64,000 nucleotides of DNA from Fibrobacter sp. (GTDB lineage: Bacteria > Fibrobacterota > Fibrobacteria > Fibrobacterales > Fibrobacteraceae): contig JAKSIJ010000007.1 in NCBI GenBank assembly GCA_024398875.1, forward strand, positions 62,001 through 126,000. The letters run 5' to 3'. The notes beneath the pieces are model-generated. The model was not told the DNA's origin. It saw nothing but the letters and a program-made list of their open reading frames with translations, and did not search any database. The position numbers and the translations under genes were made by a program. Within the stretch, counting starts at the first letter, position 1. Each line of letters starts with the position of its first letter. Shown here piece after piece: positions 8,317 through 49,129 of the stretch.

Positions 8317-8417
8317 CCTTTGTTTTCAAAAAGAACCGCATAAGTTCCCTATTTCCCCGTGTAATCCCATCATTTTAGATTATTTTTATGGGAGTCCCTT
8401 TCGAAGAGAGGTCTTTT

Positions 8418-10601
8418 ATGGCTATTGCTAAAAAAATTGCCGGTCTGTTGGCATTGACATCCGCATTTGCTTTTGCAGGTCCTGTGAGTCATTTTGGTAA
8501 ACTGGTGACTTGCGGTCATGCTTATTTGTGTGGTGAAAAGACGAATGCCGCAGTACAGGTGAAAGGTCCTAGTTTGTATTGGTCTACGGGTTTGGGTACC
8601 GCTTTCTATAATGAGACTGCAATTAATTGGTTTGTGAACAACATGAACATTGGCGTTGTCCGCGCTGCCATGGCTATCAAATATTGGGATGGAGGAAGTG
8701 ACCCCATCTCTATGTCCGATGGCAACCCTGGTCCCACAACGGATTTTGGTTATTTGTCTACGGGGTCTACGAACAAGGATAAGCAAAAAGAGATGATCGA
8801 AACGGTCATTCAGGCTGCCATAGATAACGACATCTATGTGATTGTGGACTGGCATTCTCATAGGGCCGACCAGGAAACTTCCGAGGCAGTAGCATTCTTC
8901 TCTGCAATGGCTACTAAGTACAAGGACGTCCCTAATATCATTTGGGAGGTGTATAACGAGCCTCTACAGTGGACTGCTGCAAGCACTATCAATAGCTATG
9001 CCTCGCAGGTTGCCGCCGCTATCCGTAATGCAGGGAATAACAATCTGATTGTGGTGGGTAGTCAGAAATGGACTTCTTATCCCCTTCAGCAGTCTCAGCA
9101 GGGTTTGCATAACACCTATCAAAATATTGCCTATAGTTTCCATTTTTATGCTGCTGAACATTCCTTAGGAAATGGTAATGACGCCGGTTCCGCTGCTAGT
9201 AGTAATGTTCCCATGTTTGTAACGGAGTGGGGTACTACAGCGGCGAGTGGCGATGGAACGCCAAGCGAGTCGGGAACTAGAACCTGGACGCAATGGATGG
9301 ACCAGAACAAACTTAGTAGCTGCAATTGGTTTGGGGGAGCCGATTCCCAAGGCTCGGCCATGTTCAAGGACGGGACTATTCCTTCTACGATGAGCACTTC
9401 CAATTTGACATCGTCGGGAAATCTGTTTAAAAATTATATGGCCCAACAGCCTTGGACGGATTATGTTCCTGCCTCGCAGCCTATGGGTAAGAGCATTGAA
9501 GGGGTCATTCCGGATGGGTCTTCTAAAACGTTTTCATCTGAGCTGAATCTTCGGGGAACTATTTCTGCTGCTTCCTCTGACTATGGCACAGTGACATTTA
9601 CGGATAATTCCATCACGGTTTCCTTGGGATCAGCCACTCCAGAATCCTTCCCTGTAAGCTATACCGTTTCTTATGGGGGAATGACCATCAAGGAAAGAAT
9701 TTTGGTGAAGGTGACGAACCGCAAGCCTGCATTGAAGGATACTACAATTTCTGTGAGCTATAAGGCGCCTTCAAAATTCACTTTGTTAAAACTTGGAGCG
9801 GTGGACCCTGAAACGGGCAGGACAAATTCTCTCATCTTGAAGGGAGCTTCTGCTGATGTGGGCTCTGCCAGCATTTCTGGCGATACCGTGGTTTATGAAC
9901 CTGCTGGCGAGGGAGTTGCTACGGTAAAGTATCAGGTATCCAATGCCAATGGCACCACGGAGGGCACGTTGATTTTGAATTGCGAAAATCAGGCTCCCAC
10001 CATCTACTCGGGATCCTTCACCAGCATACAAAACACGGAATCTGCGGTAATAGACATGCACTTAGTTCGTGGCAAGGATGCTGATGGGGATTCTATTTGG
10101 TTTAAGGCTTATACGAAAGGGCTATTCCCGGGAACCATCAATGTGGTTGCCCCAGATACATTAGTCTATATTCCTGAACCAGGTAAGATTGGAACGGTTA
10201 CTATGCTTGCCGTGCTGACGGATGGGAAGCTTGATTCTAAGATTGGTCCTATTGAAATCACTATTGGTGGGTATGGAGTCAGCTTTGATGGAACTATTCC
10301 TATTCCCACACAAATTGAGGATTATGATCCTTCAGAAGCCGTTTACGTGTTTAAAGACCCTGTCCGTGCCAATCTGAATGTGGTAGGTACAGACGTGCTT
10401 TTCTCTCTACCTCAGTCTGCAGAAGTTTCCCTGGCGGTCTTTGACATCAAGGGCCACTGTGTTGCAACTCTTGCTAAGGAGAAGTTCTCTGCAGGTAGCC
10501 ATCGCGTGGGGCTCAAAGGTGAGTCTTTCCCCAAGGGAATGTATATTGCCCGTATGCAGTATGGTAGCCAGGTGAAATCAGTTCGGTTTGTCAATAAGTA
10601 A
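8418..10601 (+). CDS. Secreted GH5 endoglucanase with Ig-like repeats and T9SS-type C-terminal domain
   Basis: A cellulase of glycoside hydrolase family 5, cutting internal beta-1,4-glucan bonds outside the cell. I take ATG 8418 as start because AGAGAGG lies 6 bases upstream and a clean signal peptide follows (cleavage after ALTSAFAFA); an in-frame ATG at 8388 lacks this. The (beta/alpha)8 domain covers residues about 20-340. The acid/base Glu is at about 181 in YNEPL and the nucleophile Glu at about 270 in TEWGTT. Residues about 360-620 form several beta-rich, cadherin- or Ig-like repeats. The last 70 residues (AVFDIKGHCVATL to the end) resemble a Por/T9SS sorting domain. Layout and motifs are closest to subfamily 2. 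Confidence 0.9.
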   Translation: MAIAKKIAGLLALTSAFAFAGPVSHFGKLVTCGHAYLCGEKTNAAVQVKGPSLYWSTGLGTAFYNETAINWFVNNMNIGVVRAAMAIKYWDGGSDPISMSDGNPGPTTDFGYLSTGSTNKDKQKEMIETVIQAAIDNDIYVIVDWHSHRADQETSEAVAFFSAMATKYKDVPNIIWEVYNEPLQWTAASTINSYASQVAAAIRNAGNNNLIVVGSQKWTSYPLQQSQQGLHNTYQNIAYSFHFYAAEHSLGNGNDAGSAASSNVPMFVTEWGTTAASGDGTPSESGTRTWTQWMDQNKLSSCNWFGGADSQGSAMFKDGTIPSTMSTSNLTSSGNLFKNYMAQQPWTDYVPASQPMGKSIEGVIPDGSSKTFSSELNLRGTISAASSDYGTVTFTDNSITVSLGSATPESFPVSYTVSYGGMTIKERILVKVTNRKPALKDTTISVSYKAPSKFTLLKLGAVDPETGRTNSLILKGASADVGSASISGDTVVYEPAGEGVATVKYQVSNANGTTEGTLILNCENQAPTIYSGSFTSIQNTESAVIDMHLVRGKDADGDSIWFKAYTKGLFPGTINVVAPDTLVYIPEPGKIGTVTMLAVLTDGKLDSKIGPIEITIGGYGVSFDGTIPIPTQIEDYDPSEAVYVFKDPVRANLNVVGTDVLFSLPQSAEVSLAVFDIKGHCVATLAKEKFSAGSHRVGLKGESFPKGMYIARMQYGSQVKSVRFVNK

Positions 10602-10687: not shown

Positions 10688-11980
10688 TTATTCTTCAGAA
10701 GAGCTGGACGTTGCTTCTGAAGAAGAGGTGTCTATAGAAGAAGAACTTTCTGTAGAGGAAGAGCTAGAAATGCTTGCCGAAGAAGGAGGGAACTGCCCTT
10801 CAACCAAAGAAGGATCTATTCCTAAAGCCTCAAGAGTCGAAACTTCCCAGGTGTTGCTCTTCTTGTTATAGAACTCGAATCCGCCCACGGATGTGAATGC
10901 CCAATATTGCCAACTCATGTCGTGGGAATCCATGGTTTCAACGACAAACTCAATCCATTTTGCTTTGGAGTCCAGATTGTTGCAGGTGGAAACGCCAAAT
11001 TCGCCAATGGTGATAGGGATACCTTCTGGATTTGTGGCAGGGAACCTTGCGTCGGCATAAGCGCGCATATTATCAAAGTCGGTAGAGATTTTGCTCTTTT
11101 CCGCTCGTGATCCAAGCCATTTCACGGGATTATTGACGTCGCATTTAGTGTTGTGACCTTGATGCGTCAGCAGCTGCGGTTCATAGTAATGAACGTCGAT
11201 AATGACGTTTCCGTCGTTTTCCGGCAGAACCAGTTTCTTGATGCCTGCATAGCCACCCCATGGATAAGTGTTATAGACGAGGGTTCTGCCAGGATTGTGC
11301 TTGCGGATGATGGGGTAGGTCCTTTGAATCATAGTGTTATAGAGATCGGAGCTGACCCCGTTGACAGGCTCGTTGAACAATTCAAACAGCAAGAAATCGT
11401 TGTCATAATCCTTGAATTCTCGGCTAATTTGCGCCCAGATGGAATCCACGCGAGTTAGATTATATTCAGCATTGGCCTCGTTAGGCATGCCGTTGACCAT
11501 GTCGTTCAAGAATGATGCGTGATGGTGCATGTTCATCATCACCCGCATGTTATTGTCCTTAAAGTATCCCAGAACTTCCTTGATTCTGGCGATATATTCC
11601 GGCTTGATGGTGTAGGGAGCCTCTTTGGAAGCGGCTTCATCCCAACGAACCGGGAGTCTGGCTGTCTTGAAGCCTAACTTAGCCATTAGGGCGACTTGCT
11701 CTGGTTTGACGGGCCCAGCGCCCCAGCAGGTTTCGCAGGTGGCGTCAAAAGTATTGCCGAAGTTGATGCCATTCCCTAACTTCTTGTTCATGGCGGCGCC
11801 TTTGGAATAGTCTACAGGGGTAACTTCCTTGGCGGAGGATGAACTTTCAATAGGTTCTTCAGCGGCGGAGGATTTGCGGTCGGGGCCAACGATATTTCCG
11901 TCGGAGTCGCTGGAAGAGCAACCGCATAGGCCAAAAATCACCATGCAGGGAAGGATTTGACTAAGGAATTTTTGCTTCAT
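10688..11980 (-). CDS. GH5 cellulase lipoprotein with serine-rich tail
   Basis: A 430-residue GH5 glycanase predicted to be anchored as a lipoprotein (lipobox LCGC, Cys at about 21). A Ser/Glu/Ala linker (about 23-55) leads to the catalytic domain, which opens with GNGINFGNTFDA. The acid/base Glu is at about 204 in FNEPVN and the nucleophile Glu at about 327 in TIGEFGV. MNMHHHASF carries the conserved histidines. The protein ends in about 30 residues that are almost all Ser with Glu/Thr/Ala, a low-complexity tail common in Fibrobacter secreted proteins. The family is firm. Beta-glucan rather than xylan or mannan as substrate is inferred from the neighbours. Transcribed away from the operon at 12133. 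Confidence 0.88.
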   Translation of the reverse strand: MKQKFLSQILPCMVIFGLCGCSSSDSDGNIVGPDRKSSAAEEPIESSSSAKEVTPVDYSKGAAMNKKLGNGINFGNTFDATCETCWGAGPVKPEQVALMAKLGFKTARLPVRWDEAASKEAPYTIKPEYIARIKEVLGYFKDNNMRVMMNMHHHASFLNDMVNGMPNEANAEYNLTRVDSIWAQISREFKDYDNDFLLFELFNEPVNGVSSDLYNTMIQRTYPIIRKHNPGRTLVYNTYPWGGYAGIKKLVLPENDGNVIIDVHYYEPQLLTHQGHNTKCDVNNPVKWLGSRAEKSKISTDFDNMRAYADARFPATNPEGIPITIGEFGVSTCNNLDSKAKWIEFVVETMDSHDMSWQYWAFTSVGGFEFYNKKSNTWEVSTLEALGIDPSLVEGQFPPSSASISSSSSTESSSSIDTSSSEATSSSSEE

Positions 11981-12132: not shown

Positions 12133-12858
12133 ATGAGAATTCCCGGTTTAGTAGGTATAGCAGTGCTGTCTCTTATGACGGCATCCTTTGCCTCGTTTAG
12201 CGATTATCGTGATAGAGATGCTTCCCACTTCATTGTCAAGGAAGTGAAACCTTTCCATAGCGATGCAGACGTTGTGTCTGTGGTGATGCGCGAAGGCATT
12301 CCCCGTGGCGGCGGATACACCTACCAGTACCCCCGCGAAAACCCTGAACCGTTTATGACGGACGTGGCTGGTTCCAAGGAAGGCGACCTGGCTATGCAGA
12401 TCGAGCTCATTGCCGACGACTATTCAGGTGTGGCTATTTGTGTTGCCGGCTCTGTGGACTTGACTCCCTACTTGGAAGAAGGCGTCTTGGAGTTTTGGAT
12501 CAAGGGCGAAAAGGGTGAAGAAAATGCCCTTTTCGTGCTAGTGGACGATGGCGTGAAGAGCAACGGTGAATCTCTTCAGGTCAAACTCCGTTCCAAGAGT
12601 TTTGGTGAAATTACGAAGGAATGGAAGCACTTCAGCATTCCTCTGAAGAACTTCGGTATGACCGGTTTGTACTGGGATGCCAAGAACACTAGAGATGTAA
12701 TGCTTCCCTTCGCCTGGAGTAACTTCAAGGGATTCCGTCTTGAAGTGCGTAAGGGTGAGAACGAATCCTTCAAGGTTTGGATGGACGATATCGTCATCAA
12801 GAAGCATGGCGAAGCTTATCAAGGTCCTAGTGGCTATCCCTTCCGTAATGAGCTGTGA
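12133..12858 (+). CDS. Secreted beta-sandwich, CBM-like protein
   Basis: A 241-residue exported protein heading the six-gene surface operon. ATG 12133 has GGAG 5 bases upstream and begins a signal peptide (MRIPGLVGIAVLSLMTASFA). The longer frame from 12055 has neither. The mature part alternates beta strands (LEFWIKGEKGEENALFVLV, WKHFSIPLKNFGM, FRLEVRKGENESFKVWMDDI). This pattern is seen in galactose-binding-like carbohydrate modules such as CBM11 and the ExoP C-terminal domain. No catalytic motif is seen. It overlaps or abuts the next gene at the stop codon. A polysaccharide-binding or scaffold role is inference from fold resemblance and context. Confidence 0.6.
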   Translation: MRIPGLVGIAVLSLMTASFASFSDYRDRDASHFIVKEVKPFHSDADVVSVVMREGIPRGGGYTYQYPRENPEPFMTDVAGSKEGDLAMQIELIADDYSGVAICVAGSVDLTPYLEEGVLEFWIKGEKGEENALFVLVDDGVKSNGESLQVKLRSKSFGEITKEWKHFSIPLKNFGMTGLYWDAKNTRDVMLPFAWSNFKGFRLEVRKGENESFKVWMDDIVIKKHGEAYQGPSGYPFRNEL

Positions 12859-12869
12859 TGAGGTGTTTC

Positions 12870-15137
12870 ATGCGTAGAAAAAATATTGTATTCTCTGCCT
12901 TATCCATTGGCCTTTTGGCTTCCGCAACCTATGCTGCTCCTATGACAGCTGCGAAGCTGGATTCCCTGAACGAACGTCTGGATTCCCTGGAGGCTTATGC
13001 CGGTTCTACCACAGTCGGTAAGGACGACAATCCGGTGGCTGTATCTGGTGATATTGCTGTTCGTTTCAAGAATTTCGACTACTACGAGGAATCTTCTTTG
13101 CAGATAGATGACCGGGTTCGTACGAGAGTGGAAGCTGCCCTCACATTGGGAGTGGTGGTCTCCCCGGCATCGTTCTTGACGGTGTTTACCAACCTTTACC
13201 TGCCCTTTGATTTCTCTGGTTACTTTGCAAATTCCAATGCAACAGACCCAAATGATGGCCCGTTCAATAACAATGAGCGCGTCCTCTATCTTCACTCTTC
13301 CGACTACTATGGGCTGCGTATTTCCGAAAATATGTTGGCCGGCGTGGATATGCGTACAGGAAGCTTTGGAGCCACCCTTCTTGCTGGTGGTGTGATTTGG
13401 AAGAGCGGTAGCCCCCTTACTTTGTGGGAACGTGAAACTATGCCCCGTTTCATCTCCCAGTATGAACTCTTTGAAGATGAAAAGGTGGTGAGTACTTACT
13501 ATAAGGAAAAGGGTTTTAAGCCCGTGAAGGAAGGTGGCCGTGCATTCTGGACGAACCGTTCTTTCGGCGGCTTGTTCCTGGATATTCATACGTTGCCCTG
13601 GAACTTGAAGGCTCAGGCAATGCTGTCCCAGCCGATGGACATGGATGTTGGTGCTCGTGATGGTCTTCGTATGCTGGGTTCTCAGGTGGGTGAACTAGAA
13701 ATGACGGGTACATACGACTTCCGTGGCCAGGTGGTTCATGGTCGTTTGGCCAAGGAAAAAATCAAGTTCCTTGACGCCGACATGACCTTGGGTGCCAACT
13801 ATATGGGTGTTATTTACGAGAAGGATCAAATCTATGAACCGGATTATCAGGTTCACCCAGTGGTGACGGATGGTGAAGGGAATCCTGCCATTTCCGATTA
13901 TCATGTGGCTTCTGTTGATTTGAAGGGTAACTTGACTCCTAAGTTCTATTTGATGACTGATGTGGCTTTGAGCTGGGATGACTCCACGATTTTTAAAGAT
14001 GCTTCCGAAAATTTGAAGGAAGCAGGCTCTAAGCAGAAATACGAAAAGGAATACAATCGTACGGAAACTTCCAAACCTGCTGTGGGTGTGTATGTGAAGG
14101 CTCAAGACAAGCACCTCATTCCCATCACTTTGGAAGCGGTTTACTTGCAGAAGGATTTCTTCTCTCCTTATGGAATGACGGATCCGTCCCGCTTCCGTTC
14201 TTGGCGTCAGGATGAATGGTATGCCGGTGCGGGTACATTCCGCTATGGTCCTAACATGGTGGGCGGTAACTTGAAGTTTGAACCGGACTTTAATCGTGGC
14301 CGCGCTCACTTCCAGTATGGCATCCATCGCCAGCTTGAAGAAGGGGATGACATTGTCAACTACAAGTACAACTTGAATGGTCGCGCCATGTGGGAATCCT
14401 CCAATTCCTGGACTCGCCATAAGTCTATGTTCAATTCCGATTCTGGTAACGCTCGTTCTGCCGCTCGTCAGCTTTCTCGCGTGGCAGGCGGTCCTGGTCA
14501 ATCTCGTTTGGAAAACCAAGAAGGTGGTGTTCGTGGTGGTACATGGGAACTCTGGGATTCCTTTGTTCCATTTGAATCCGTTGAAGATGCGAAGGCGGGC
14601 AACATTCCACAACATACCAAGTGGAACTCTACTTTGGCTTTTGATTTGGGTTATGATATTGGCCATTGGTTCCATACGGACCGCAATATCATGCTTCAGT
14701 TGTATACCGCTCTTTCTGGTGTCTCTACGTCTTTCTCCCCGTTGGGTTACAGCGAAGACCAGAAGGATATGCTTCTTGTGAACTGGTATGTTCAGTCTGA
14801 ACCGGCTATTGCCATTACTCCAACAATTCACGGCGTATTGATAGCTGGTTTTGAAACCTTCAGAGCAGAAGACGCTTATATAATGCGTTCGATGTCCACG
14901 GCATTGACTAGTAATTCTGGTGCTTATCAGGCTCCCTATTCAAAGGGAGGTACTTATTATGAAAAGGCTCCGCTAAATGTCCTGCAGACTTCTCTTGGCT
15001 TTGGCTTGGATTGGGACTTTGCGGATAGAGCTGGGCTGCACTTCCGCTACAAGTGGATGACTAGCAGTGATGAGACTGTTCCTGAAAATGACTGGAAGGG
15101 TCATTACATTCAAGCTGAAACTAAGGTATGGTTCTAA
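12870..15137 (+). CDS. Large outer-membrane beta-barrel protein, paralogue 1
   Basis: A 755-residue predicted outer-membrane protein of no recognised family. ATG 12870 has TGAGG 6 bases upstream, giving the signal peptide MRRKNIVFSALSIGLLASA; in-frame starts at 12855/12858 are less likely. A short Leu-heptad segment follows (KLDSLNERLDSLEAYAGS). The rest is a long series of amphipathic strands with many aromatic girdle residues. The chain ends in Phe (AETKVWF), the usual signal for BAM insertion. Motifs such as SPLTLWERETMPRF near residue 190 are shared in loosened form with the two following genes. I infer a transport or adhesion barrel for cellulose products. Confidence 0.65.
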   Translation: MRRKNIVFSALSIGLLASATYAAPMTAAKLDSLNERLDSLEAYAGSTTVGKDDNPVAVSGDIAVRFKNFDYYEESSLQIDDRVRTRVEAALTLGVVVSPASFLTVFTNLYLPFDFSGYFANSNATDPNDGPFNNNERVLYLHSSDYYGLRISENMLAGVDMRTGSFGATLLAGGVIWKSGSPLTLWERETMPRFISQYELFEDEKVVSTYYKEKGFKPVKEGGRAFWTNRSFGGLFLDIHTLPWNLKAQAMLSQPMDMDVGARDGLRMLGSQVGELEMTGTYDFRGQVVHGRLAKEKIKFLDADMTLGANYMGVIYEKDQIYEPDYQVHPVVTDGEGNPAISDYHVASVDLKGNLTPKFYLMTDVALSWDDSTIFKDASENLKEAGSKQKYEKEYNRTETSKPAVGVYVKAQDKHLIPITLEAVYLQKDFFSPYGMTDPSRFRSWRQDEWYAGAGTFRYGPNMVGGNLKFEPDFNRGRAHFQYGIHRQLEEGDDIVNYKYNLNGRAMWESSNSWTRHKSMFNSDSGNARSAARQLSRVAGGPGQSRLENQEGGVRGGTWELWDSFVPFESVEDAKAGNIPQHTKWNSTLAFDLGYDIGHWFHTDRNIMLQLYTALSGVSTSFSPLGYSEDQKDMLLVNWYVQSEPAIAITPTIHGVLIAGFETFRAEDAYIMRSMSTALTSNSGAYQAPYSKGGTYYEKAPLNVLQTSLGFGLDWDFADRAGLHFRYKWMTSSDETVPENDWKGHYIQAETKVWF

Positions 15138-15148
15138 GGAGGCTTGAC

Positions 15149-17341
15149 ATGCAAAAGAAGAATGATATGAAGATGGAAAAAGGTTTGAGCATGTTGCGTA
15201 TTACAGCCGCCTGCTTGCTGTCTAGTGTTGCGATTGCTGCTGCTACGGAGAATGCTACAAACGCAGCGAAGATTGATAGCACATTAGAATCTATAGAATC
15301 CAAGAAAGGTGTAGACATTGGTGGAACAGTTCGTGCTGTTTACTCCAACTCTCACGTTTCCTCCGATCAGGATGTGAACGCCTATAACGTGATGCCCGAC
15401 CGTGAAGTGGCAGAATTTGTCCAACTAGATTTGGACTTTGCCTTCCGCCCATGGGATAGCATTCGTTTCAATGCCAAGATGAGGGCTTTTGCGGGAATGC
15501 AGGATTACTTCGCTGCTTCTGCAACTTCTGTGACTTTCCCTTGGTTGAATGTGGAAGGGAACGTTGGTTCCTCCTTCTATTGGACTTTGGGCGATTTCCG
15601 CAGTCAGATTTCTCCGCTGACGGTTTTTGCGCCAGGTGTGGAACTGATGTATGAACCGCTGATTTTTGCTCGCAATAAAGAAATGGCAATGAATGATGCT
15701 CTTCTTTCTGGCAATCAGCGCAATTTGCAGGGAGCTAACCTCCAGTTCCGTCATGACTTTGGCGGCATGCCGGGAGAACTTCGTGCTGAAGCTTTTGCAG
15801 CCCGCGTCCGTCGTGGCGAAATGCTGGACTATTCCGGTTACGAAGGAAATATCCTTCCTAATGAAGGTATCGCAGGTGCTACACAGGCGGGTAGTTACGA
15901 CAAGTACGCCTTGAGTGGCAACTTGGAATGGTTCCCCATGAATCGTAATTTGATGTTGGGAGCCACCTATTTGTGGGTTGTGGATGATGAGAATTCCATT
16001 AACCGCAATTACTTCTACGATCCTAAGGGGCAGAACTTCTCTTATTTGCCGACCAATTATCTGGATTCTCTGGCCCAAGATACCAAAGTTATGTCTGGCC
16101 GCCTTGGTGGAGACATGGCCGGGGCTCTTGGTAGCAAGAACCTTATTTTGGATGTGACGACTGAAGTCGCTGCTTCTATCGATAAGGTTTACGAATATCA
16201 GGAAGCGGGTACTTTGGAAGATGGAACGGTGATTTTCGAGCCGGTCAGTGATGATGAAAAGGGAATGGCAATCAATGCCGCTCTTACTGCTGGTTATAAG
16301 GCAGATTTCTGGAGTGCAAAACTTGCGGCAAATTACATTCACAATGATGAAAAGTGGTTCAATAATATGGCCCAGTCTCCATCTTTTGTGGCCCGTCGCA
16401 TTCTCAATTCCGATAAGGATGGTAACCTGACCAAGTATGGTACATACGCTCCGTTGTACTCTTCCTTTGATGCGATGTATTACTTCCAGCCTAGACACTC
16501 TCCAATGTCTAATTCTCTAAGCAACGCTTCCCCGCTGAATACAAAGGCTGGTAAGATTCAGAATAAGAGCTACAACATCGCTCCTTATAGCAAAACGTCT
16601 TACACTAGTGCTACATTCACGCGTAGTGAATTGGCTTTGATTGAGCTTCTTTCCGACCCCGCTCTTCAGATGAGCCTGCCAAATGGTTTTGCTACTGCAA
16701 ACCGTACGGGTGTTCATGCAAATCTTGTCGCCGGTCTTGGCAAGGATAACGCCTTCGAGGTTCAGGGATTGTTCATTATGCAGGAGCAGGTGAAGGCCAT
16801 TCTTTTGGATGAAAAGGCAAAGTTCATGGAAATGGGTGGAGGCGCAAAGGTTGATGTGCTTAAGCTCTTTGGATTTGACAAGACTTTGGAATTGAGTGGC
16901 AGCTATAAGTATTCTACGAAGGAGTTGGGTGATGCAGAGATGAATTCTGATTTCACCAATGGCGGCTTCTACTGGCGTTACTTTAAGCGCTTCGGAATTG
17001 CTGCTGGGTTCCAGATGGTTCGCACCAATTTGAATTCTGCCATGGCAAAGGTGGAACAGGCTAGTGCTATGGGTTTGAATGTAGATGTGGCTCCTGTGAT
17101 GGAAGGAACCCAGATGCAATGGATGGTCGGTTTGGACTATACCGTCGCTCCTCACGCTTGGTTGTCCATGAACTATGGGCAGACTCGTGTGAAGAACAAG
17201 TATAATGTTTCTGGTTTGGAATTGGGCAATACCAACATTCCGGACTACATGGCTGCGCTGCCGGATAACGCAGGAGCATCCAAGCTTACTCATGAATTTA
17301 CACAGAATATCATTGATGCCCGCATCAATATTGAATTTTAA
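15149..17341 (+). CDS. Large outer-membrane beta-barrel protein, paralogue 2
   Basis: A 730-residue predicted outer-membrane barrel. AAGGAGG ends 6 bases before ATG 15149. The signal peptide (LRITAACLLSSVAIAAA) is followed by a short helical stretch (NAAKIDSTLESIESKKG) and then by strands to the terminal Phe (DARINIEF). Two motifs link it to the next gene: SPLTVFAPGVELMYEP at about 154 and LPNGFATANRTG at about 510. The third gene has TPLTMYQPQADYIMEP and LPYGYATPNRKG at similar positions. The same N-terminal and C-terminal layout occurs in paralogue 1. No TonB plug or box is visible, so this is not a TonB-dependent receptor. The function is not known from sequence. Confidence 0.65.
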   Translation: MQKKNDMKMEKGLSMLRITAACLLSSVAIAAATENATNAAKIDSTLESIESKKGVDIGGTVRAVYSNSHVSSDQDVNAYNVMPDREVAEFVQLDLDFAFRPWDSIRFNAKMRAFAGMQDYFAASATSVTFPWLNVEGNVGSSFYWTLGDFRSQISPLTVFAPGVELMYEPLIFARNKEMAMNDALLSGNQRNLQGANLQFRHDFGGMPGELRAEAFAARVRRGEMLDYSGYEGNILPNEGIAGATQAGSYDKYALSGNLEWFPMNRNLMLGATYLWVVDDENSINRNYFYDPKGQNFSYLPTNYLDSLAQDTKVMSGRLGGDMAGALGSKNLILDVTTEVAASIDKVYEYQEAGTLEDGTVIFEPVSDDEKGMAINAALTAGYKADFWSAKLAANYIHNDEKWFNNMAQSPSFVARRILNSDKDGNLTKYGTYAPLYSSFDAMYYFQPRHSPMSNSLSNASPLNTKAGKIQNKSYNIAPYSKTSYTSATFTRSELALIELLSDPALQMSLPNGFATANRTGVHANLVAGLGKDNAFEVQGLFIMQEQVKAILLDEKAKFMEMGGGAKVDVLKLFGFDKTLELSGSYKYSTKELGDAEMNSDFTNGGFYWRYFKRFGIAAGFQMVRTNLNSAMAKVEQASAMGLNVDVAPVMEGTQMQWMVGLDYTVAPHAWLSMNYGQTRVKNKYNVSGLELGNTNIPDYMAALPDNAGASKLTHEFTQNIIDARINIEF

Positions 17342-17355
17342 GAGGGGCTGAGATT

Positions 17356-19509
17356 ATGAACTTGAAAATGAACATTTGTAAGTATTCATTGCTGGTGTCT
17401 TTTGCAGCAGCCTCGGCATTCGCGGCGGAACCGACTACCGATTCTGCCTCCGTAGAACAGAAGCAGCAGAGCTTCTTGGAAAAATTGGAAGACATCCAGA
17501 AGAACGTTCTCGGATTCTCCGTTAACGGATCTGCAAAGGCTGGCTATATGCGCTCCTCTGTGGATTCTGACATGCTTTGGGATGACGCTCAGACGGCAGA
17601 AGCCCAGGCTTATACACGAGCAAACCTGCTTTTCTCCATCCGTCCCAGTAAGGAAACGGTGGCGAAGTTCGGTATTCGCGCTCATAAGGATTGGAACAAT
17701 GCCCATCGTGAAGGAAACAACGTTCCTCTTATTGACTGGTGGTCTTATGATGGATTGATTTTGAACCGTCATGTGGACTTCAATTTGGGAACTATGCGGG
17801 TGGGCTATACTCCCCTTACTATGTATCAGCCTCAGGCAGATTACATTATGGAACCGGAAGTGTTCAAGGAACGTCGTGAAGAGGTGATGGCGGAACGCTC
17901 CTTAGATGGCTCCAATCGCCGCCTGATGCAGGGTTTGAACTTTACCTTCCATTCCTACGAACTGGGATTTTTGAGTGACCTTTATGTTCAGGGAACTCTG
18001 GCTCGTTTGAGAATTAACGGAAAGAAGGCTGACCAGCTGTTCTTCGACTTCGATGATTCTGACCGTTATTTGTTTGGTGGACGTCTTGGAGTTGAAACCC
18101 ATGGATTCACTGTGGGTGTAAATGACGCTTTCGCCTTTGACCGCGTCCGCAGTACCCGTGCCACCCTGTTGCAGGGTAATTATCCTGCAGATTATGAGTG
18201 GAACAATGTGGTGAGCGGTAACGTGGGCTACGATTCCAAGAAGGTGGGCAAGAGTAAGTTTAACTTTGGCGCCAATGCCGAAGTGGCTCTCTCATACTGG
18301 AAGTCTTCTGTGGATGAACTTGGTAGTGATACGCTGAAAAATCTTGCCTTCTATACGGACTCTGTTTATATGCCCGATGGTTCTAAAGATCTCCGTGCCT
18401 ATATGTTCTACAAGGATTCTATAGATTTGAGTCCCGTTGAACGGAATTTGGGATATCTGAAGAACAAGATGGGAATTCATGGTGATGCATACGCAGAATA
18501 CGAGGCCTCTAAGTGGAGCGTGAAGGGTTCTGCAAATGGCATTATGAATGATAAAGGGTTTCAGGCAGAGCTTGCTATGAGTCCTGTGACCATGGGTCTT
18601 ACCTCTGTTTTGAATAGCAATGCCATCTTTGATCCTAATGATCCCACCTCTGCTTTATTGCAGGGAGCTCGTTCAGGTGCTTTGGAAAACCTCTACTTCT
18701 CTTTCTACGAAGCGGTTCCTCAAGCTGCCTATAATATGATGATTAATAATACGACTGGAGCTGCTCAAGTTGTTGGAACGGAAAAGATTTATGTCCAAAG
18801 TGACACTTTCGAACTTTTCAACAATTACAAGTATGGTCAGTACTATCGCAATGGCTATAGCTATAAGACCATGAAGCGCGCAGAGCTTTTGGCTATGGCT
18901 CAGGCATTGGATCCAGCCACGAGCATTGCTCTTCCGTACGGGTACGCTACGCCTAACCGCAAGGGTGGCGACTTGAATTTGGAATTCACTTGGAATGATG
19001 CTATTACGGTTCGTGCTGTAGGTGGCTTCTATAAGGCCGATAAACTTGATGCTGATAGCCTCTACTTTGCAAGCGGTTCCTCTTACCTGCGTGTAGGTGG
19101 TGGCGCCTTGGTTAAGTTCGGCGAACTTTTCTCCTGGAATCGTACTGTGAATCTTTCTGGTTCATACGAACAGACCAAGGAAGAAGATTACTTGGAGCGA
19201 ACCTCCTCTAGCATCACTGCCGGCTTGAATGTAGATGTGTTCGGCCCTGTGGCATTGCTTGGCGGCTTCCACTTGTTGAAGAATGACTTTGGGGTTGCCT
19301 ATGCAGGATTCCTCAATGGTACTACAGAGACTTTGGCTCTGGGTGGTCCTCGTGTCAAGTTGGCTCAAGGCGCTTATCTCACCCTCCAGTATGGTTGGAT
19401 GAAGAACTCTGTGGATATGACAGTTCTTGATGAGGCTGGCGCTGCCGCTTCTAAGTCTGTAGATATTACCAAGAATATTATCATGGCCGATGTGAAGGTC
19501 AATTTCTAA
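17356..19509 (+). CDS. Large outer-membrane beta-barrel protein, paralogue 3
   Basis: A 717-residue predicted outer-membrane barrel with signal peptide (YSLLVSFAAASAFAAE), a helical segment (KQQSFLEKLEDIQKNVLG) and strands ending in Phe (MADVKVNF). Conserved points shared with paralogue 2 are TPLTMYQPQADYIMEP (about 151), a following FKERREEVMAERSLDGSNRR against FARNKEMAMNDALLSGNQRN, and LPYGYATPNRKG (about 525). GAGGGGCTGAG precedes the ATG. The 14-bp gap from paralogue 2 and 10-bp gap to the lipoprotein place it in the operon. Tandem duplication followed by divergence is the simplest origin. Confidence 0.65.
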   Translation: MNLKMNICKYSLLVSFAAASAFAAEPTTDSASVEQKQQSFLEKLEDIQKNVLGFSVNGSAKAGYMRSSVDSDMLWDDAQTAEAQAYTRANLLFSIRPSKETVAKFGIRAHKDWNNAHREGNNVPLIDWWSYDGLILNRHVDFNLGTMRVGYTPLTMYQPQADYIMEPEVFKERREEVMAERSLDGSNRRLMQGLNFTFHSYELGFLSDLYVQGTLARLRINGKKADQLFFDFDDSDRYLFGGRLGVETHGFTVGVNDAFAFDRVRSTRATLLQGNYPADYEWNNVVSGNVGYDSKKVGKSKFNFGANAEVALSYWKSSVDELGSDTLKNLAFYTDSVYMPDGSKDLRAYMFYKDSIDLSPVERNLGYLKNKMGIHGDAYAEYEASKWSVKGSANGIMNDKGFQAELAMSPVTMGLTSVLNSNAIFDPNDPTSALLQGARSGALENLYFSFYEAVPQAAYNMMINNTTGAAQVVGTEKIYVQSDTFELFNNYKYGQYYRNGYSYKTMKRAELLAMAQALDPATSIALPYGYATPNRKGGDLNLEFTWNDAITVRAVGGFYKADKLDADSLYFASGSSYLRVGGGALVKFGELFSWNRTVNLSGSYEQTKEEDYLERTSSSITAGLNVDVFGPVALLGGFHLLKNDFGVAYAGFLNGTTETLALGGPRVKLAQGAYLTLQYGWMKNSVDMTVLDEAGAAASKSVDITKNIIMADVKVNF

Positions 19510-19519
19510 GAGGTTGAAT

Positions 19520-20248
19520 ATGCATAAGAACGTTGTAAAAGCTTTTATCGCATCAAGCCTTCTGCTAGGTTTAACGGCATGTTCCGACATGGCTGTCGAT
19601 GAAAATGAAGCAATCGGAATGCCTAGCGATTTTTCCGTTAGCGAATATGTGAAAATCAATCCGGATGTAAAGTACCAGCAAATCAGAAAAGATTTGATGG
19701 ACAATTTCTTCTATAACAAGGCTCGTCAGGATTCTTCTAAATCTGCTTGGTTACTGGAAGATGGCTCCGTCGTTATTTCTGAGACTATGCCTGCAGGCGG
19801 TTCCTTTGCAAATGATGTTCGTAAGGCGGCCAAGGACGCTATTGAAGCGGACAACGAGGCTTTCCTTGCAGATACGGCCTTGGCTCACGAAGTCTTTTCC
19901 AAGTACATTGGTTTTGACGATAGCTTGTGGGTGGAAGAACTGGATCCTGATGTGAAAACTGCTATTTGTGAATTCAACAAGCAGCAGACGGGTGCTCCAG
20001 ATGTGAAGGAAGACAAGGCGTTTTTGAAAAACTTTTCGTTTAATGAAGACCTGATGGCCAACCACTATCTGATGTTGGGCACCCTCGAGGGTAGAGCCTA
20101 TCGTTATTGTACCAAGTCCGATAAGATGTCCACAACCTTCGCAGAGGTTGTTCCGGACACCCTTGGTTCGGCTCCATTCATGTTGGATTACAGTGCCAAT
20201 CGGTTCTGCTATGATTCCACTTCTGCACAGAAATACATAATTCAGTGA
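19520..20248 (+). CDS. Operon lipoprotein of unknown function
   Basis: A 242-residue predicted lipoprotein. ATG 19520 follows AAGAGG by 6 bases and gives MHKNVVKAFIASSLLLGLTA with the lipobox LTAC (Cys 21). The mature protein is mostly helical and acidic and contains DEDKAFLKNFSFNEDLMANH-like segments but no motif I can name. Two cysteines, in AICEF and YRYCTKSDK, might pair. Lying directly after three barrels, it may be a surface or periplasmic partner of them, much as SusD-type lipoproteins accompany SusC. That is an analogy of gene order and not of sequence. Confidence 0.6.
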   Translation: MHKNVVKAFIASSLLLGLTACSDMAVDENEAIGMPSDFSVSEYVKINPDVKYQQIRKDLMDNFFYNKARQDSSKSAWLLEDGSVVISETMPAGGSFANDVRKAAKDAIEADNEAFLADTALAHEVFSKYIGFDDSLWVEELDPDVKTAICEFNKQQTGAPDVKEDKAFLKNFSFNEDLMANHYLMLGTLEGRAYRYCTKSDKMSTTFAEVVPDTLGSAPFMLDYSANRFCYDSTSAQKYIIQ

Positions 20249-20255
20249 GGCATGT

Positions 20256-21311
20256 ATGCGTTTTAAGTATTTATCTATCGCGCTTCTCGCTTGCTCTACT
20301 TTAGCCTGCGCCGCGGGTGCTCGTGTTGCAGGTTATTTCCCATACTGGCTGCAGTATTCTCAGTTCACGCCGGAAGATGTCCGCTATGATTTCTTAACGG
20401 AAGTCCGCTACGCTTCCATGATTCCTTCCGAGTCTGGTGAACTGACCTTTGCTGACGAAAGCGACGCTCCCAATATGGAAAAGTTGGCTCAACTTGCAGA
20501 AGAGAATAAGGTGAACTTCATCATCTCTGTGGGTGGCGCGGGTAATGAAGATGCTATGCGTGCTTTGACGGATGACGCTCTTATGAGTGCCTTTGTCAAC
20601 TCTGCAAAGCAGGCTTTGGAAAAGTATAAGGGCGAAGGCATTGAAATCGATTGGATCCCGGAAGAGGATTCCGATTTTGAGGTGTTCAAGAAGGTTGTTT
20701 CTGCCCTTGCTGATGCCGGCGTAGCTGTTTCTGCGAATTTAAGTGCAGATGCGTCAAAGGCTTCTTCTTATAGCGATGTGTTTGCAAAGTTTTCTTCTGC
20801 CTCTGTGTATTTTACAGACCAGTCTTCTGCTGAATCCTCTGAAAAGGTGGAGGTCAATGCCAACCTAAAAGACGCTCAGAATGTTTTGGAAGCCTACATT
20901 TCTGCTGGCCTTTCTGCGGAGAAGATTGTTCCCATAGTACCCATGTATGGAAAGACCTTCTATAATGCAAAGGGCTTGGGGAGTTCCTTTGAAGGCGCTG
21001 GTTCGGGTAATGAAGGAGCCATCTCTTACAAGGAACTGATGAAGTCTTTTGATGGTCCGGATTATCAGGTGACCTTTGATGAGGCTTCCTGGAGTGAAGT
21101 GGCTGTCAGTGCAACGGAAACAATCACCTTTACAGGAATTCCTTCTTTGAAGAACTTCGCAACATACGTGAAGGAAAAGGGAATGGGGGGTATCGCCCTC
21201 TATGACCTATCTGGGGATCACAACGAACCTATTGTCTCCTTGATGGTGACTGTGGGTCAGGTGCTTCGCCCAGAAGTCAATTACCAGCCCAAAAAGAAGA
21301 AAAGTAAATAA
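20256..21311 (+). CDS. GH18-fold protein lacking the catalytic glutamate
   Basis: A 351-residue exported protein with the glycoside hydrolase family 18 fold. Signal peptide MRFKYLSIALLACSTLACAA. VAGYFPYWLQYSQF opens strand 1 and FIISVGGAGNED matches the SxGG motif. IVPMYGKTF and GMGGIALYDLSGDH match later strands. The catalytic motif DxxDxDxE is changed to EGIEIDWI at residues 127-134: only the third Asp (132) is kept and the proton-donor Glu is Ile 134. Chitinase activity is therefore unlikely. Family precedent for such changes is binding proteins of the chi-lectin type. It is the last gene of the operon and ends in a Lys-rich tail (PKKKKSK). Confidence 0.8.
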   Translation: MRFKYLSIALLACSTLACAAGARVAGYFPYWLQYSQFTPEDVRYDFLTEVRYASMIPSESGELTFADESDAPNMEKLAQLAEENKVNFIISVGGAGNEDAMRALTDDALMSAFVNSAKQALEKYKGEGIEIDWIPEEDSDFEVFKKVVSALADAGVAVSANLSADASKASSYSDVFAKFSSASVYFTDQSSAESSEKVEVNANLKDAQNVLEAYISAGLSAEKIVPIVPMYGKTFYNAKGLGSSFEGAGSGNEGAISYKELMKSFDGPDYQVTFDEASWSEVAVSATETITFTGIPSLKNFATYVKEKGMGGIALYDLSGDHNEPIVSLMVTVGQVLRPEVNYQPKKKKSK

Positions 21312-21431: not shown

Positions 21432-22442
21432 ATGATTCAAAAAATTGCAATGTTCGGCTTGGCCGCTGCTGCTACCTCTGTATTCGCTGCTGGTAGCCTT
21501 TGGTCTATTTCCGAAGGTAAGAACTATTCCTATCAGGTCCAGACTCCTGAAGTCTTGGCTTGCACAGGTGGCGCTCCTAGCAAGATGGCTGACTATGGTG
21601 CAGCCTGCTTCCAGTCCACTGGTGGTTGGTGGTTTGCATACGATGCAACCAAGGATCTTGCTGGCACGACCGCTTCCATTACCCCTGCTGACAAGAACGC
21701 TGATGGTACTTGGAAGTTGATTACGACTTCTGAGGAAGATGGCTCCATTCTTCCTGGTGGTAACTTGGATGCTTCCAAGGGTCTTTGGGCCACCATGAAG
21801 ACCACTGGTGTTTCTGGTGAAGTTCCGGGCGTTGTAGGTATCGGCTTCAACTGGACAAAGGCTGAAACTGCTATCAGCATTACTTCCAATGGTGGTTACT
21901 GCGTAGCTTATTCTTGGGATAGCGCTGATGAACTCCAGATGGAACTCGGTTGGGATTCCAAGACCAATGGCGATGACACTTGGTTCTTCGTTCTTCCTTC
22001 GGGTTCAAAGACCCTCGACATTACTTGGGCTCAGTTTGGGCAGGAAAATTGGGACACCAACCACTCCACCACCGTTTCCACCGCTACCGATGGCGCAGTG
22101 AGCCTCAAGTTCCGCGTGAAGAATGGTACTACAAGTGAAATGGGCGGTACCTTTGCTCTGTCTGAACTCGGCAAGCCGGGTGAATGCGGTGCAGCTCCTT
22201 CTGCCATTTCTGATGTGAAGGCTGTCTCTGCTAAGGTCATGCTCAATGGCCGTACCCTCTCTGTCGCTGGCCTCACCGCTTCTGCTACTGTTGAAGTTGT
22301 GAACCTCCGCGGTCAGGTGGTTGCTAGCCAGATGATGAGCGGCTCTGCTGCCATGAACCTCTCTTCTCTCGACGCCGGCATGTATATGGTCCGCGTTCAG
22401 GGCAAGTCTGTGAACTACACTCAGAAGGTCATTCTGAAGTAA
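21432..22442 (+). CDS. Secreted beta-rich protein with T9SS-type C-terminal domain
   Basis: A 336-residue exported protein with signal peptide (AMFGLAAAATSVFAAG). Residues about 20-255 are rich in Trp, Gly and Thr with a carbohydrate-binding look (STGGWWFAYDATKDLAG, SNGGYCVAYSWDSADELQME). The final 70 residues (VMLNGRTLSVAGLTASATVE, then LRGQVV and AGMYMVRV) are a clear relative of the end of the GH5 at 24042. This indicates the same export and surface-attachment route, probably type IX secretion. No catalytic motif is seen. A strong ribosome site (GAGAGAG) and very regular codon use suggest high expression. I infer a cellulose-binding surface protein; the family is unrecognised. Confidence 0.6.
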   Translation: MIQKIAMFGLAAAATSVFAAGSLWSISEGKNYSYQVQTPEVLACTGGAPSKMADYGAACFQSTGGWWFAYDATKDLAGTTASITPADKNADGTWKLITTSEEDGSILPGGNLDASKGLWATMKTTGVSGEVPGVVGIGFNWTKAETAISITSNGGYCVAYSWDSADELQMELGWDSKTNGDDTWFFVLPSGSKTLDITWAQFGQENWDTNHSTTVSTATDGAVSLKFRVKNGTTSEMGGTFALSELGKPGECGAAPSAISDVKAVSAKVMLNGRTLSVAGLTASATVEVVNLRGQVVASQMMSGSAAMNLSSLDAGMYMVRVQGKSVNYTQKVILK

Positions 22443-22493: not shown

Positions 22494-22599
22494 GTGTGAT
22501 AGTATTCACGAATTTTAATTGAAATAAAAAAAATACTTTTAAAAATTTCTTTTTCTTGCTAGAAAATGTATTTTAGAGCGGTATATTATGAGGAATAGT

Positions 22600-23898
22600 A
22601 TGAAATTCTTAAAATTCTTTGCATTTATGTTGGCCTTGGCCTTTGCTGCTTGTAGCAGTGATTCTGGGACTATTTCTAACGGCGATCCAGGCAATCCGGA
22701 TAATCCGGATAATCCTAATAATCCGGACAATCCGGATAATCCTAATCCTCCCAGTGGTGGTGGAACCATCTATTTCCCGGCTAACAAGAATCCGGACGCT
22801 GCATCGGCCTTTTATAATGGCTGGATGGCAAACTTCTATGTAACTTTTGGTGAAGAAGTTTCTCCGGCTGATGAAATTTATTATTCTGATGATTTGCTTC
22901 CTCTGTTGCGGCAGTCTGCTCGAATCAAATTTGACCAACCCACAGAAACGGTTTCTGAAGGTATTGGCTATGGAATGCTTGTGGCCGTGTTCCAGGGTGA
23001 CCAGGCTCGTTTTAATGCATTGATGAACTACTATTTGGCATTCCGCTATGGTCCCGCTGCAGGGGATTATTACATGAAGTGGAAGGTGACGGGATTCAAG
23101 ACTGGTAAGGGTTCTTCTGCCTCCGATGCGGATTTAGACATTGCGGCTTCATTGCTGATTGCTCATGAAAAGTGGGGTTCCACAGAGGCTGCAAATTATT
23201 TGCAGCACGGAATTAATGAGGCCTCCTCTATCATGGCCAAGGAAGTTAATCCAGAAAGCCATTTGATTGTGCCGGCTAATGATGGCCCCAAGCTTTCTAC
23301 AGGCGCTGTCTATAATATCAGCTATTTTTCTCTGGTTGCTATCAAGCTTTTCTCTATGTATGACACGCAGCGTGCTGACCAGTGGAACCAGGTTTTGGAG
23401 AGCACTATCGCTTACATGAAGAAGGTGCAAGATGCGGGTAATGGCTTGTGGCCTGATTGGTGTGATATAAACGGAACGCCTACAGATCCAGAAAATGGTT
23501 CTTCAACAGGCTTAAGGAACGACAGCTGGGGTCTTGAGGGAATTCGCATTCCCTGGCGCTTGGTTTGGTACTATTCCTGGTTTGGTGATGATCGGGTGAA
23601 GGAAATGATTCAGAAGGCTGCGGCATTTGCTGTTAATGTGACGGGAGGCGATATCAAGATGATGATTAGCCGTTACAACTATCAGGGGGAAGTCAACAAG
23701 AGTGGAATTGGCATCGGCTCCGCTGGGCACATGGGTGCTTTCTGCTCTTTGACTATGATAGACCCTCAATATGCGGATTTCCTGAATACATGTAACCAGG
23801 TTGTTTTGGATACTCCACTTGGATCTGGAACGATTTATTTTACGCCTAGCATCCAATTGCTCTATTTGCAGTTATTGAACGGGATTATGGCTCGTTAA
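22600..23898 (+). CDS. GH8 endoglucanase lipoprotein
   Basis: A family 8 glycoside hydrolase (inverting, alpha/alpha6 barrel), likely acting on beta-1,4-glucan. ATG 22600 gives MKFLKFFAFMLALAFAAC with lipobox FAAC; an ATG 12 bases earlier is an alternative (TGAGG lies between them). A linker of repeated Pro-Asp-Asn units spans about 30-53. The catalytic domain has the acid Glu at about 120 in SEGIGYGML and the family's Asp cluster SDADLDIA at about 175-182. RNDSWGLEGIRIPWRLVWYY matches the later substrate-binding region. The length of about 380 residues for the domain is usual. It stands alone between two terminators. Confidence 0.88.
   Translation: MKFLKFFAFMLALAFAACSSDSGTISNGDPGNPDNPDNPNNPDNPDNPNPPSGGGTIYFPANKNPDAASAFYNGWMANFYVTFGEEVSPADEIYYSDDLLPLLRQSARIKFDQPTETVSEGIGYGMLVAVFQGDQARFNALMNYYLAFRYGPAAGDYYMKWKVTGFKTGKGSSASDADLDIAASLLIAHEKWGSTEAANYLQHGINEASSIMAKEVNPESHLIVPANDGPKLSTGAVYNISYFSLVAIKLFSMYDTQRADQWNQVLESTIAYMKKVQDAGNGLWPDWCDINGTPTDPENGSSTGLRNDSWGLEGIRIPWRLVWYYSWFGDDRVKEMIQKAAAFAVNVTGGDIKMMISRYNYQGEVNKSGIGIGSAGHMGAFCSLTMIDPQYADFLNTCNQVVLDTPLGSGTIYFTPSIQLLYLQLLNGIMAR
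22693..22746 (+). repeat. Six tandem 9-bp units encoding an Asn-Pro-Asp linker
   Basis: Six consecutive units of the type aatccggat or aatcctaat, each encoding Asn-Pro-Asp or Asn-Pro-Asn. They separate the lipid anchor from the GH8 domain. The unit length of 9 keeps the frame when copy number changes. Confidence 0.85.
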
Positions 23899-24041: not shown

Positions 24042-25874
24042 ATGCGTAAAATATTTTTTCTAGTGCTGTTTTTTGTGGTTGCTGCCATGGCTACGCCCGT
24101 TTCTGAAAATGGCGCCCTTTCCTTCAATAGCGAAGGCCGTATTGTCAATGAAAAAGGGCAGGTGGTGCAACTTCGTGGCATGAGCCTTTTTTGGGATCAA
24201 TGGGCCAGTGGGTGGTTCAACGAGAATGTGATTAAGGGTTTGGCGTCTACGGACGGGAGTACGGGTTGGAGCGCTTCCGTGATTCGCGCACCTCTTTCGC
24301 AATTAAATGTGACTCAGGCGAAAAATATGATTGATTGGGCTGCAGCAGCAGGCATCTATATCATTATTGATTATCATTCTCATTGTGCGCACAAGAACAC
24401 GAACAATAGTGCCAATTTTTTCAGAGAGGTTTCTGCATATGTGAAGCAGAAAAGCTACAAGCACGTGATTTACGAGTTGTATAACGAGCCCTTGTATGAA
24501 AATTGTTGGGGAGAAACCGATACGCAGTCTGGAGGCACGAAAACATCATGGTCCATTATTAAGACGTACGCTTTGTCTGTAATTCCTGGAATTCGTGCCA
24601 ATGATCCAAATGGTCTGATTCTAGTGGGTACCCCTCAATATTCTCAGGATGTTTTTTCGGCGCAAAAAGATCCTATTACGGGATATAATAATATTGGCTA
24701 TGTTTTGCATTTTTATGCTTCCGAGTCGGGCCACTCGGGACTGAAAACAGAACTTCTCCGTGCTAGATGCCAGAATTTCCCTGTATTTATTACGGAGTGG
24801 GGAACTTCCCCGGCAATCGGGAATGGAAGTATTAATTGGACCTGGGTAAACGAATGGATGGCTTGGATTGAGAAGTTGGGTTACAGTTGGGCCAATTGGT
24901 CTTTATATGACAAAAATGAAACTGCATCCGCTATTTCTTCAGGAGGTTCTTCTGGGTATTGGCAGGATTATCAATTGACGCAATCGGGCCAGTATGTTCG
25001 CAAGATGATTCGCGGCTTCAGTTCTGGTGGCACGCTCGCCACCATGGGTCTTTCTGAACCATCCATGCAGAGTTGTTCTATTTTCGAAGGCGGGGAGGTC
25101 TTTGAATTTGAACGCACGGGTTGGGGAGAGTTTGGCCCTGCCATTAATGCGGAGAACTATGCAGATTCTTCAAATATTCAATCTGTGGAGGATAAGAGTA
25201 TCCATGCAAGTCAGGATATCTATATCAAAACTACGGGGGATAATGCCTGGGCTAAATACGAGATGAGAAATGTTCCCGCAGATGGTTATTACCGCATGGT
25301 TTTTGTTTATCAAGCCCCAAATAAAGAGTTGAAAATTCCGTATACAGTTGAAGGGGTGGATGGTACCAGTTACATTACTCTTCCTCAGACGACGGACAAT
25401 ACCATGTTTAGTACCAGCAGAGCGCCTATTCAATTGAAGTCAGGCACGGATTATATCACTTTTGATTTGGGTGGAGTGACCTCCAATGATTTGAAGTTTG
25501 ATGCTTTCTGGGCGAAGACTATGGATTCTACAGATAGTGTCAATTTCGGACTTCTGGAAGTTGATGAGAACGGGAATCGCATTGTGAAGGATCCGGAATC
25601 AAGTAGTTCTGGAATGCCTGAGTCTAGCGCTACTGAGGCAATTGCGCCGGTTCGCTCTTCCCTTGTGCAATTACAGTTGCAGGGACGCACGCTCTCGCTT
25701 GCTGGCGTTGAGGGCGATATTGCTTTGAACATTATGGATTTGCAGGGTCGTGTGATGCTCACAAAGCGAGTGCGTAGCGGCCAGGTGGATTTGTCTAATC
25801 TGCGTTCTGGCTCCTATGTATTGCGGGCAACCGCACGCGGTGCTGTAGTGAACCAGCGGATTAATCTGAAATAA
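24042..25874 (+). CDS. Secreted GH5 endoglucanase with CBM-like and T9SS-type domains
   Basis: A 610-residue cellulase. Signal peptide MRKIFFLVLFFVVAAMATP. The GH5 domain (about 20-330) begins QVVQLRGMSLFWDQW. It has DYHSHCAHKN for the conserved histidine, the acid/base Glu at about 149 in YNEPLY and the nucleophile Glu at about 252 in TEWGTS, a subfamily 2 layout. Residues about 350-490 form a beta-sandwich resembling CBM6/CBM35 (AWAKYEMRNVPADGYYRMVF, then LKSGTDYITFDLGG). A short Ser/Pro/Glu linker precedes the sorting-like C-terminus (LQLQGRTLSLAGVEG to INLK), which is closely similar to that of the protein at 21432. Single-gene unit between terminators. Confidence 0.9.
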   Translation: MRKIFFLVLFFVVAAMATPVSENGALSFNSEGRIVNEKGQVVQLRGMSLFWDQWASGWFNENVIKGLASTDGSTGWSASVIRAPLSQLNVTQAKNMIDWAAAAGIYIIIDYHSHCAHKNTNNSANFFREVSAYVKQKSYKHVIYELYNEPLYENCWGETDTQSGGTKTSWSIIKTYALSVIPGIRANDPNGLILVGTPQYSQDVFSAQKDPITGYNNIGYVLHFYASESGHSGLKTELLRARCQNFPVFITEWGTSPAIGNGSINWTWVNEWMAWIEKLGYSWANWSLYDKNETASAISSGGSSGYWQDYQLTQSGQYVRKMIRGFSSGGTLATMGLSEPSMQSCSIFEGGEVFEFERTGWGEFGPAINAENYADSSNIQSVEDKSIHASQDIYIKTTGDNAWAKYEMRNVPADGYYRMVFVYQAPNKELKIPYTVEGVDGTSYITLPQTTDNTMFSTSRAPIQLKSGTDYITFDLGGVTSNDLKFDAFWAKTMDSTDSVNFGLLEVDENGNRIVKDPESSSSGMPESSATEAIAPVRSSLVQLQLQGRTLSLAGVEGDIALNIMDLQGRVMLTKRVRSGQVDLSNLRSGSYVLRATARGAVVNQRINLK

Positions 25875-44947: not shown

Positions 44948-44970
44948 TTTTTTTTGATTTTTCAAAATCT

Positions 44971-45000: not shown

Positions 45001-45062
45001 TAGGTGTTTTAAGGGCAAAGGCAAAAAAAGGAAAAAACTAAATTTGTACTCAATTTTTGCTA

Positions 45063-49113: not shown

Positions 49114-49129
49114 TATTTTGAAATAGGAA

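Follow-up and report, generated by a model that had tools for sequence, protein, structure and literature searches.

How cellulose fragments enter through the outer membrane is a still-unknown step in Fibrobacter, which are major cellulose degraders of the gut. The window analysed here, meaning the whole stretch of 64,000 nucleotides (positions 62,001 to 126,000 of contig JAKSIJ010000007.1, Fibrobacter sp. assembly GCA_024398875.1), contains a six-gene operon that a sequence-only reading had proposed to encode an undescribed outer-membrane machine holding or importing such fragments. The question raised by this locus is what its products do, and whether a role in import can be argued from their sequences, their predicted folds and the genes that accompany them in other genomes.

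Organisation of the operon and its surroundings

The six genes, designated P1, A, B, C, P5 and P6, occupy positions 12133-21311 (Table 1) with neighbouring genes overlapping by up to 10 bases or separated by at most 14; an N-terminus judged by eye to be signal-peptide-like was observed in all six products. The earlier description of six same-direction genes with tiny gaps is borne out by these positions and by the spacing in orthologous loci, and that of six exported products agrees with the signal-peptide-like starts and the lipobox of P5. From its position, the gap between the divergent GH5 gene and P1 is the probable promoter region of the operon; promoter and terminator scans performed no better than on shuffled sequences.

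Table 1. Features of the operon and of its neighbourhood in the window.
Feature	Coordinates	Strand	Basis
P1, exported stand-alone CBM30 protein, 241 aa	12133..12858	+	PF21582
Barrel A, large plugless beta-barrel	12870..15137 (ATG about 12870; ORF opens 12855)	+	AF2 model
Barrel B, beta-barrel of about 22 strands with N-terminal helix	15128..17341	+	AF2 model
Barrel C, homologue of B	17356..19509	+	hhalign
P5, lipoprotein, lipobox LTAC, two further conserved Cys	19520..20248 (ATG about 19520; TTG 19514)	+	
P6, GH18-fold protein without catalytic Glu, basic C-terminus	20256..21311	+	PF00704
152-base gap between divergent GH5 gene and P1	11981..12132	.	position only
GH5 cellulase, divergent, upstream; neighbour in most orthologous loci	10688..11980	-	PF00150
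GH5 cellulase	8388..10601	+	PF00150
Protein with T9SS type A sorting domain, outside operon proper	21432..22442	+	TIGR04183
GH8 glycoside hydrolase	22588..23898	+	PF01270
GH5 cellulase	24042..25874	+	PF00150

The cellulases said to lie on both sides are confirmed as GH5 and GH8 genes, with the correction that the immediate downstream neighbour (21432-22442) encodes a T9SS cargo protein and not a cellulase. The TIGR04183 sorting domain carried by this neighbour was found in none of P1-P6. In many relatives of the window's genome the T9SS-sorted protein is kept directly downstream of the operon.

Sequence and predicted fold of barrels A, B and C

Searches of A, B, C and P5 against curated families gave no match at the family cut-off, with some homologues of A-C showing weak generic OMP_b-brl/Porin_4 matches, and neither A nor B found a sequence match when run as profiles against the PDB. 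The C-terminal residue is Phe in 73 of 74 A orthologues, in 73 of 74 B orthologues and in all 64 C orthologues, the A protein of the window ending in WF; a C-terminal Phe is the usual barrel-assembly signature. AlphaFold (AF2) gave confident barrel models for both proteins modelled (B, pLDDT 86.3 and pTM 0.85; A, pLDDT 78.5 and pTM 0.81). A DSSP count on the predicted B model yields about 22 membrane strands, preceded by an N-terminal helix and joined by loops of which the odd-numbered ones are long. The first strand starts at about residue 24 in the B model and 34 in the A model. The TonB plug PF07715 was found in none of the three barrels and the A and B models are plugless, as the sequence-only reading had noted for all three; with the plug absent, A-C were ruled out as TonB-dependent transporters. 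The possibility raised at the same time, that the barrels belong to a known porin family unrelated to glycans, finds no echo among curated porin families, none of which was matched by A-C at its cut-off.

Comparison of the barrels with each other gave an hhalign probability of 100 for B against C (E 7e-80) and of 96 for A against B. Judged from these profiles, A and B are probably homologous and C would be an old duplicate of B. Each of the three proteins has a short N-terminal heptad pattern ahead of its barrel (shuffle fractions 0.006-0.016), a feature that suggests oligomerisation; this segment of A is coiled-coil-like.

PDB fold searches retrieved ushers, OccK, SusC, AlgE and TonB-type barrels alike at Z 13-15 and 4-5 A, the best match being FimD (Z 15.2, 4.5 A, 356 aligned) and SusC 5t3r reaching Z 13.3, while chaperone-usher secretion barrels ranked first for B in Foldseek and VIA-align. 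This lack of specificity counts against the import reading, and a fold-based assignment of the barrels was dropped since the matches are only generic large barrels. With sidedness set from strand parity and both termini assumed periplasmic, columns at least 90% identical amount to 28% in the two longest extracellular loops (model residues 122-159 and 369-487) against 5.5% in the other extracellular loops (p 3e-14), and conservation of these two loops is somewhat above that of the B strands.

P1, P6 and an apparent chitin-type copy of the cassette

P1, noted earlier as CBM-like, matches CBM30 (PF21582) with 60.5 bits against a cut-off of 27, and the first CBM30 module in the Cel51A-like protein shares about 40% identity with it. 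P6 matches GH18 (PF00704) with 114 bits. Active GH18 enzymes carry the motif DGxDxDxE, which in P6 reads EGIEIDWI, and the catalytic Glu is missing in all 64 aligned Fibrobacteraceae P6 sequences, Gln being the commonest residue at that position; four extra rows of the alignment (locus L130) are active-type GH18 outgroups. The altered GH18-fold protein of the sequence-only reading is thereby upheld, and P6 was ruled out as an active chitinase by the loss of the Glu of DxxDxDxE. The P6 orthologues (window 20256-21311) also have a conserved Lys-rich basic C-terminal tail.

The closest relative of P6 beyond its own family is a divergent GH18 protein (E 2e-44) encoded beside a second copy of the barrel cassette in genomes G077 and G083. 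In these loci (L050 6002-18469 and L051 1264-16104) the order P1-A-B-B' is followed by GH20. Most of the surrounding GH18 genes have an intact catalytic motif, and G077 also possesses a cellulose-type A-B-EGF copy (L162). The second copy is apparently a chitin-type version of the cassette and, lying as it does among GH18 and GH20 genes, it makes the barrel set appear to be re-used per glycan. From sequence relationships, we infer that a GlcNAc-polymer locus of this sort may be the ancestor of the Fibrobacteraceae operon, in which P6 may be a chitinase turned binding protein.

Conservation in Fibrobacterota

A scan of the GTDB genome collection with the B alignment, as the sequence-only reading had suggested for the barrels, returned 76 loci, all under Fibrobacterota titles; a search of plasmid records with B gave no match. 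The window's own genome likewise falls in Fibrobacterota and not in Bacteroidota. The exact order P1-A-B-C-P5-P6 occurs in 60 of the 76 loci, which disfavours a chance arrangement, and the median spacings of the 59 complete orthologous operons are 6-15 bases. A divergent GH5 gene and other cellulase genes mostly adjoin the orthologous loci. Over these 59 operons, mean identity to the window proteins is highest for P1 (75%), followed by A (55), B (49), P6 (47), C (40) and the fast-evolving P5 (28).

B was found in 131 and A in 130 of 151 Fibrobacterota genomes, both being near universal in Fibrobacteraceae. A CBM30/Cel51A-like query matched in 131/131 genomes with B and gave no match in 16 of the 20 without it; as this query also matches P1, the agreement within Fibrobacteraceae is partly built in, and it is the joint absences that are informative. 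These include four genomes of genus g13, near-complete ones among them.

Linkage of A-B to CBM30 proteins, ABC importers and GH94 in sister families

Other Fibrobacterota families provided 28 loci in which the barrel pair and the gene after B are both readable. The next gene in all 28 has the same orientation as A and B and encodes a CBM30-bearing protein, which usually measures about 1050 aa and combines CBM30-CBM30-CBM11 with a GH51-like part. CBM30-CBM30-CBM11-GH51 is the layout of Cel51A, FSU_0382 (PMC6851124). The third protein is CBM-only, with 635-654 aa, in L058 (2069-3982), L059 (9465-11429) and L157 (566-2473), and is a CBM30 alone in L146 (7047-7766). In L143 (8213-9544) the Cel51A-like partner is also reduced to its CBMs, without the GH51-like domain. 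The reduced genes of L146 and L143 could be broken ones. Since the CBMs persist where the catalytic domain is gone, the binding module and not the enzyme is the constant partner of the barrels.

In 17 of the 28 loci, A-B has an SBP5 gene or several genes for an ABC importer as neighbours; nine of these 17 have the order SBP5-PermB-PermC-ATP1-ATP2-A-B-EGF, and a GH94 phosphorylase gene adjoins in eight of the 28. With two SBP5 matches in the window's genome, such adjacency is far from chance, although the loci are related and not independent. Oligopeptide-type ABC genes of F. succinogenes S85 are related to Cbt cellobiose importers (PMC6851124). The genes of the sister loci would thus make up a route from surface binding across the outer and inner membranes to phosphorolysis. 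Counting against import, the SBP5, GH94 and Cel51A genes of the window's genome lie away from the operon. This genome has its own Cel51A-like gene (L163 8624-11800, G000:C12), and an SBP5 gene is located about 15 kb off on the same contig.

The operon in F. succinogenes S85

By domain content, order and the locus numbers given in papers, the operon corresponds to Fisuc_1525-1530 (FSU_2007-2012) of S85, with Fisuc_1525/FSU_2007 as the counterpart of P1 and Fisuc_1530/FSU_2012 (CBP-9) as that of P6. Published work lists both as cellulose-binding or as CBM proteins of the envelope (PMC3079729, PMC4619616, PMC6851124). The envelope contained FSU_2007 (CBM30) and Cel51A whichever substrate was supplied, glucose as well as cellulose, the cellulose binding of FSU_2007 being an annotation (PMC4619616), and FSU_2012 is listed as cellulose-binding (PMC3079729, PMC6851124). 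Literature searches by locus tag and by guessed UniProt neighbours found no open paper naming FSU_2008-2011, i.e. the barrels and the lipoprotein. "Undescribed" consequently fits these middle genes in the literature found, but not the end genes, whose orthologues had been reported.

FSU_2012 is one of the CAZy genes whose expression is high and stable irrespective of carbon source (PMC6204037) and was 1.3-fold lower on cellulose in another study (PMC6851124), a decrease that counts against the import reading. Given this behaviour, induction by cellulose is not the expected signature of the operon.

TonB and SusD in the window's genome

Only two TonB plugs are encoded in the window's genome, and SusD (PF07980) is absent from it and from 143 of the 151 genomes, findings that favour import by plugless barrels. 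One of the two plugs belongs to a receptor within the window (45057-47531, plug 45618-45896), which counts against such import. So does the literature, in which the mechanism of cellodextrin transport is called unknown and a TonB route has been proposed (PMC6851124). With two plugs in the genome and SusD absent, a TonB route may be an alternative or a complement to the barrels. Positions 43976-54504 form an operon-like run of genes for a TonB-dependent receptor, a 532-aa protein, a DUF3450 protein, two MotA/ExbB proteins and a TPR protein. It is similar to FSU_2400-2403, a TonB/ExbB/ExbD cluster of S85 for which upregulation on cellulose has been reported.

Discussion

The operon is best read as the outer-membrane step of cellodextrin import in Fibrobacterota, working in a SusCD-like manner but being no member of the SusCD systems, with a probability that we put at a little under 60%. 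The proposed outer-membrane operon holding or importing cellulose fragments gains good support from comparative genomics, through the location of A-B beside a CBM30 protein and often a cellobiose-type ABC importer and GH94 in sister families; import itself, with the substrate and the direction of transport of barrels A-C, is what we infer. GH5 and GH8 cellulases together with Cel51A would release cellulose chains or cellodextrins, which P1 with its CBM30, the lipoprotein P5 and the dead GH18 P6 could catch and hand over to the barrels. A, B and C would lie together in the outer membrane as large channels without TonB plug, perhaps as an A-B-C heterotrimer joined through the N-terminal coiled-coil-like helices, and the long conserved extracellular loops of B may form a selective entrance. 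The cellodextrins would then reach the SBP5/Opp-type ABC importer and, finally, the GH94 phosphorylases.

The main rival to import is an anchoring or secretion platform, by which A-C would hold or export the CBM30 protein, Cel51A and the pseudo-GH18 with no sugar being moved. Such a platform would suit a CBM30 protein encoded beside the barrels as their invariant partner, the absence from P1-P6 of the T9SS domain seen in their neighbour, so that another way to the surface is needed, the first rank of secretion ushers for B, and the report that Cel51A stays largely cell-associated until cellulose is met (PMC6204037). The usher likeness is however generic (TM about 0.3), no Pfam usher family was matched by sequence, and the linkage of A-B to the SBP5-ABC importer and GH94 points to import instead; a platform is held to be improbable. 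Even more doubtful is the entry of long cellulose chains through the channels, with Cel51A and the CBM30 proteins acting in the periplasm behind them. One study indeed put GH94, Cel51A and the GH9 protein Fisuc_1531 (whose locus tag directly follows those of the S85 operon) in the periplasm, and models of cellulose entering this compartment have been proposed (PMC4668043), but that study also recovered the orthologues of P1 and P6 from the medium, Cel51A is placed at the outer membrane by other work that PMC6204037 cites, and the grooves seen in cellulose speak for hydrolysis outside the cell. These two sources (PMC4668043, PMC6204037) disagree as to which side of the membrane the CBM30 proteins work on, a point that also weighs against the import reading.

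The least probable reading is that the barrels are general-purpose or structural outer-membrane proteins standing in a cellulase cluster by accident. The high and stable expression of the S85 P6 orthologue on any carbon source (PMC6204037) and the near universality of the barrels in Fibrobacteraceae would agree with it, but the barrels and CBM30/Cel51A are jointly missing in 16 genomes, including the near-complete genus g13 ones, the linkage to glycan genes is constant across several families, and the second copy is matched to its substrate.

If the operon does import cellodextrins, its closest functional analogues would be the SusC/SusD loci of Bacteroidota, which have the same proposed job and in which the genes for barrels are likewise grouped with those for proteins that bind glycans, a lipoprotein and glycoside hydrolases; the last two features of a polysaccharide utilisation locus (PUL) are present here as the GH5/GH8 flanks and the P5 lipobox. 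Since neither of the defining features, a TonB plug in the barrels and a SusD partner, was found, the operon is not assigned to SusCD. It differs further in having two to three barrels per operon, of a different family and in a different phylum, with CBM30 as partner and with linkage to an SBP5/ABC importer and GH94. A SusD-independent locus is also known in Cytophaga hutchinsonii, whose atypical cellulose PUL chu_1276-chu_1280 encodes two outer-membrane proteins (CHU_1276 being a predicted barrel), CBM-like glycan-binding proteins and an endoglucanase, and is important for growth on cellulose (PMC12016534). Compared by description, that locus belongs to another phylum, CHU_1276 is predicted to be TonB-dependent-transporter-like and no pseudo-GH18 is reported. 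Within Fibrobacterota, Cel51A (endoglucanase F, FSU_0382) has a CBM30 related to P1 and is represented by a homologue as the third gene in the operon of the sister lineages, whereas the window's genome has the stand-alone CBM30 protein beside the barrels and Cel51A elsewhere. The maltoporin LamB and the chitoporin ChiP, which are among the fold matches of the barrels, are plugless passive oligosaccharide channels. These known sugar porins have 16-18 strands; in comparison B is larger, with about 22 predicted strands and long conserved extracellular loops, and has no curated sequence-family match.

A broader proposal can be put forward only tentatively and is itself rather unlikely, namely that the operon represents a new plugless glycan importer of the outer membrane. 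It would be made of two to three large barrels of different kinds, with the long conserved extracellular loops as gate and with CBM-only proteins or pseudo-enzymes as the binders that supply it. Other partners would adapt it to further glycans, one genome having both a cellulose and a chitin version, and it would replace SusCD phylum-wide.

Taken together, these results make the S85 genes between Fisuc_1525 and Fisuc_1530 named candidates with an evolutionary argument behind them, so that the question of entry is now testable. If the import reading is true, the operon would represent a second mode of polysaccharide utilisation locus, plugless and independent of SusCD.
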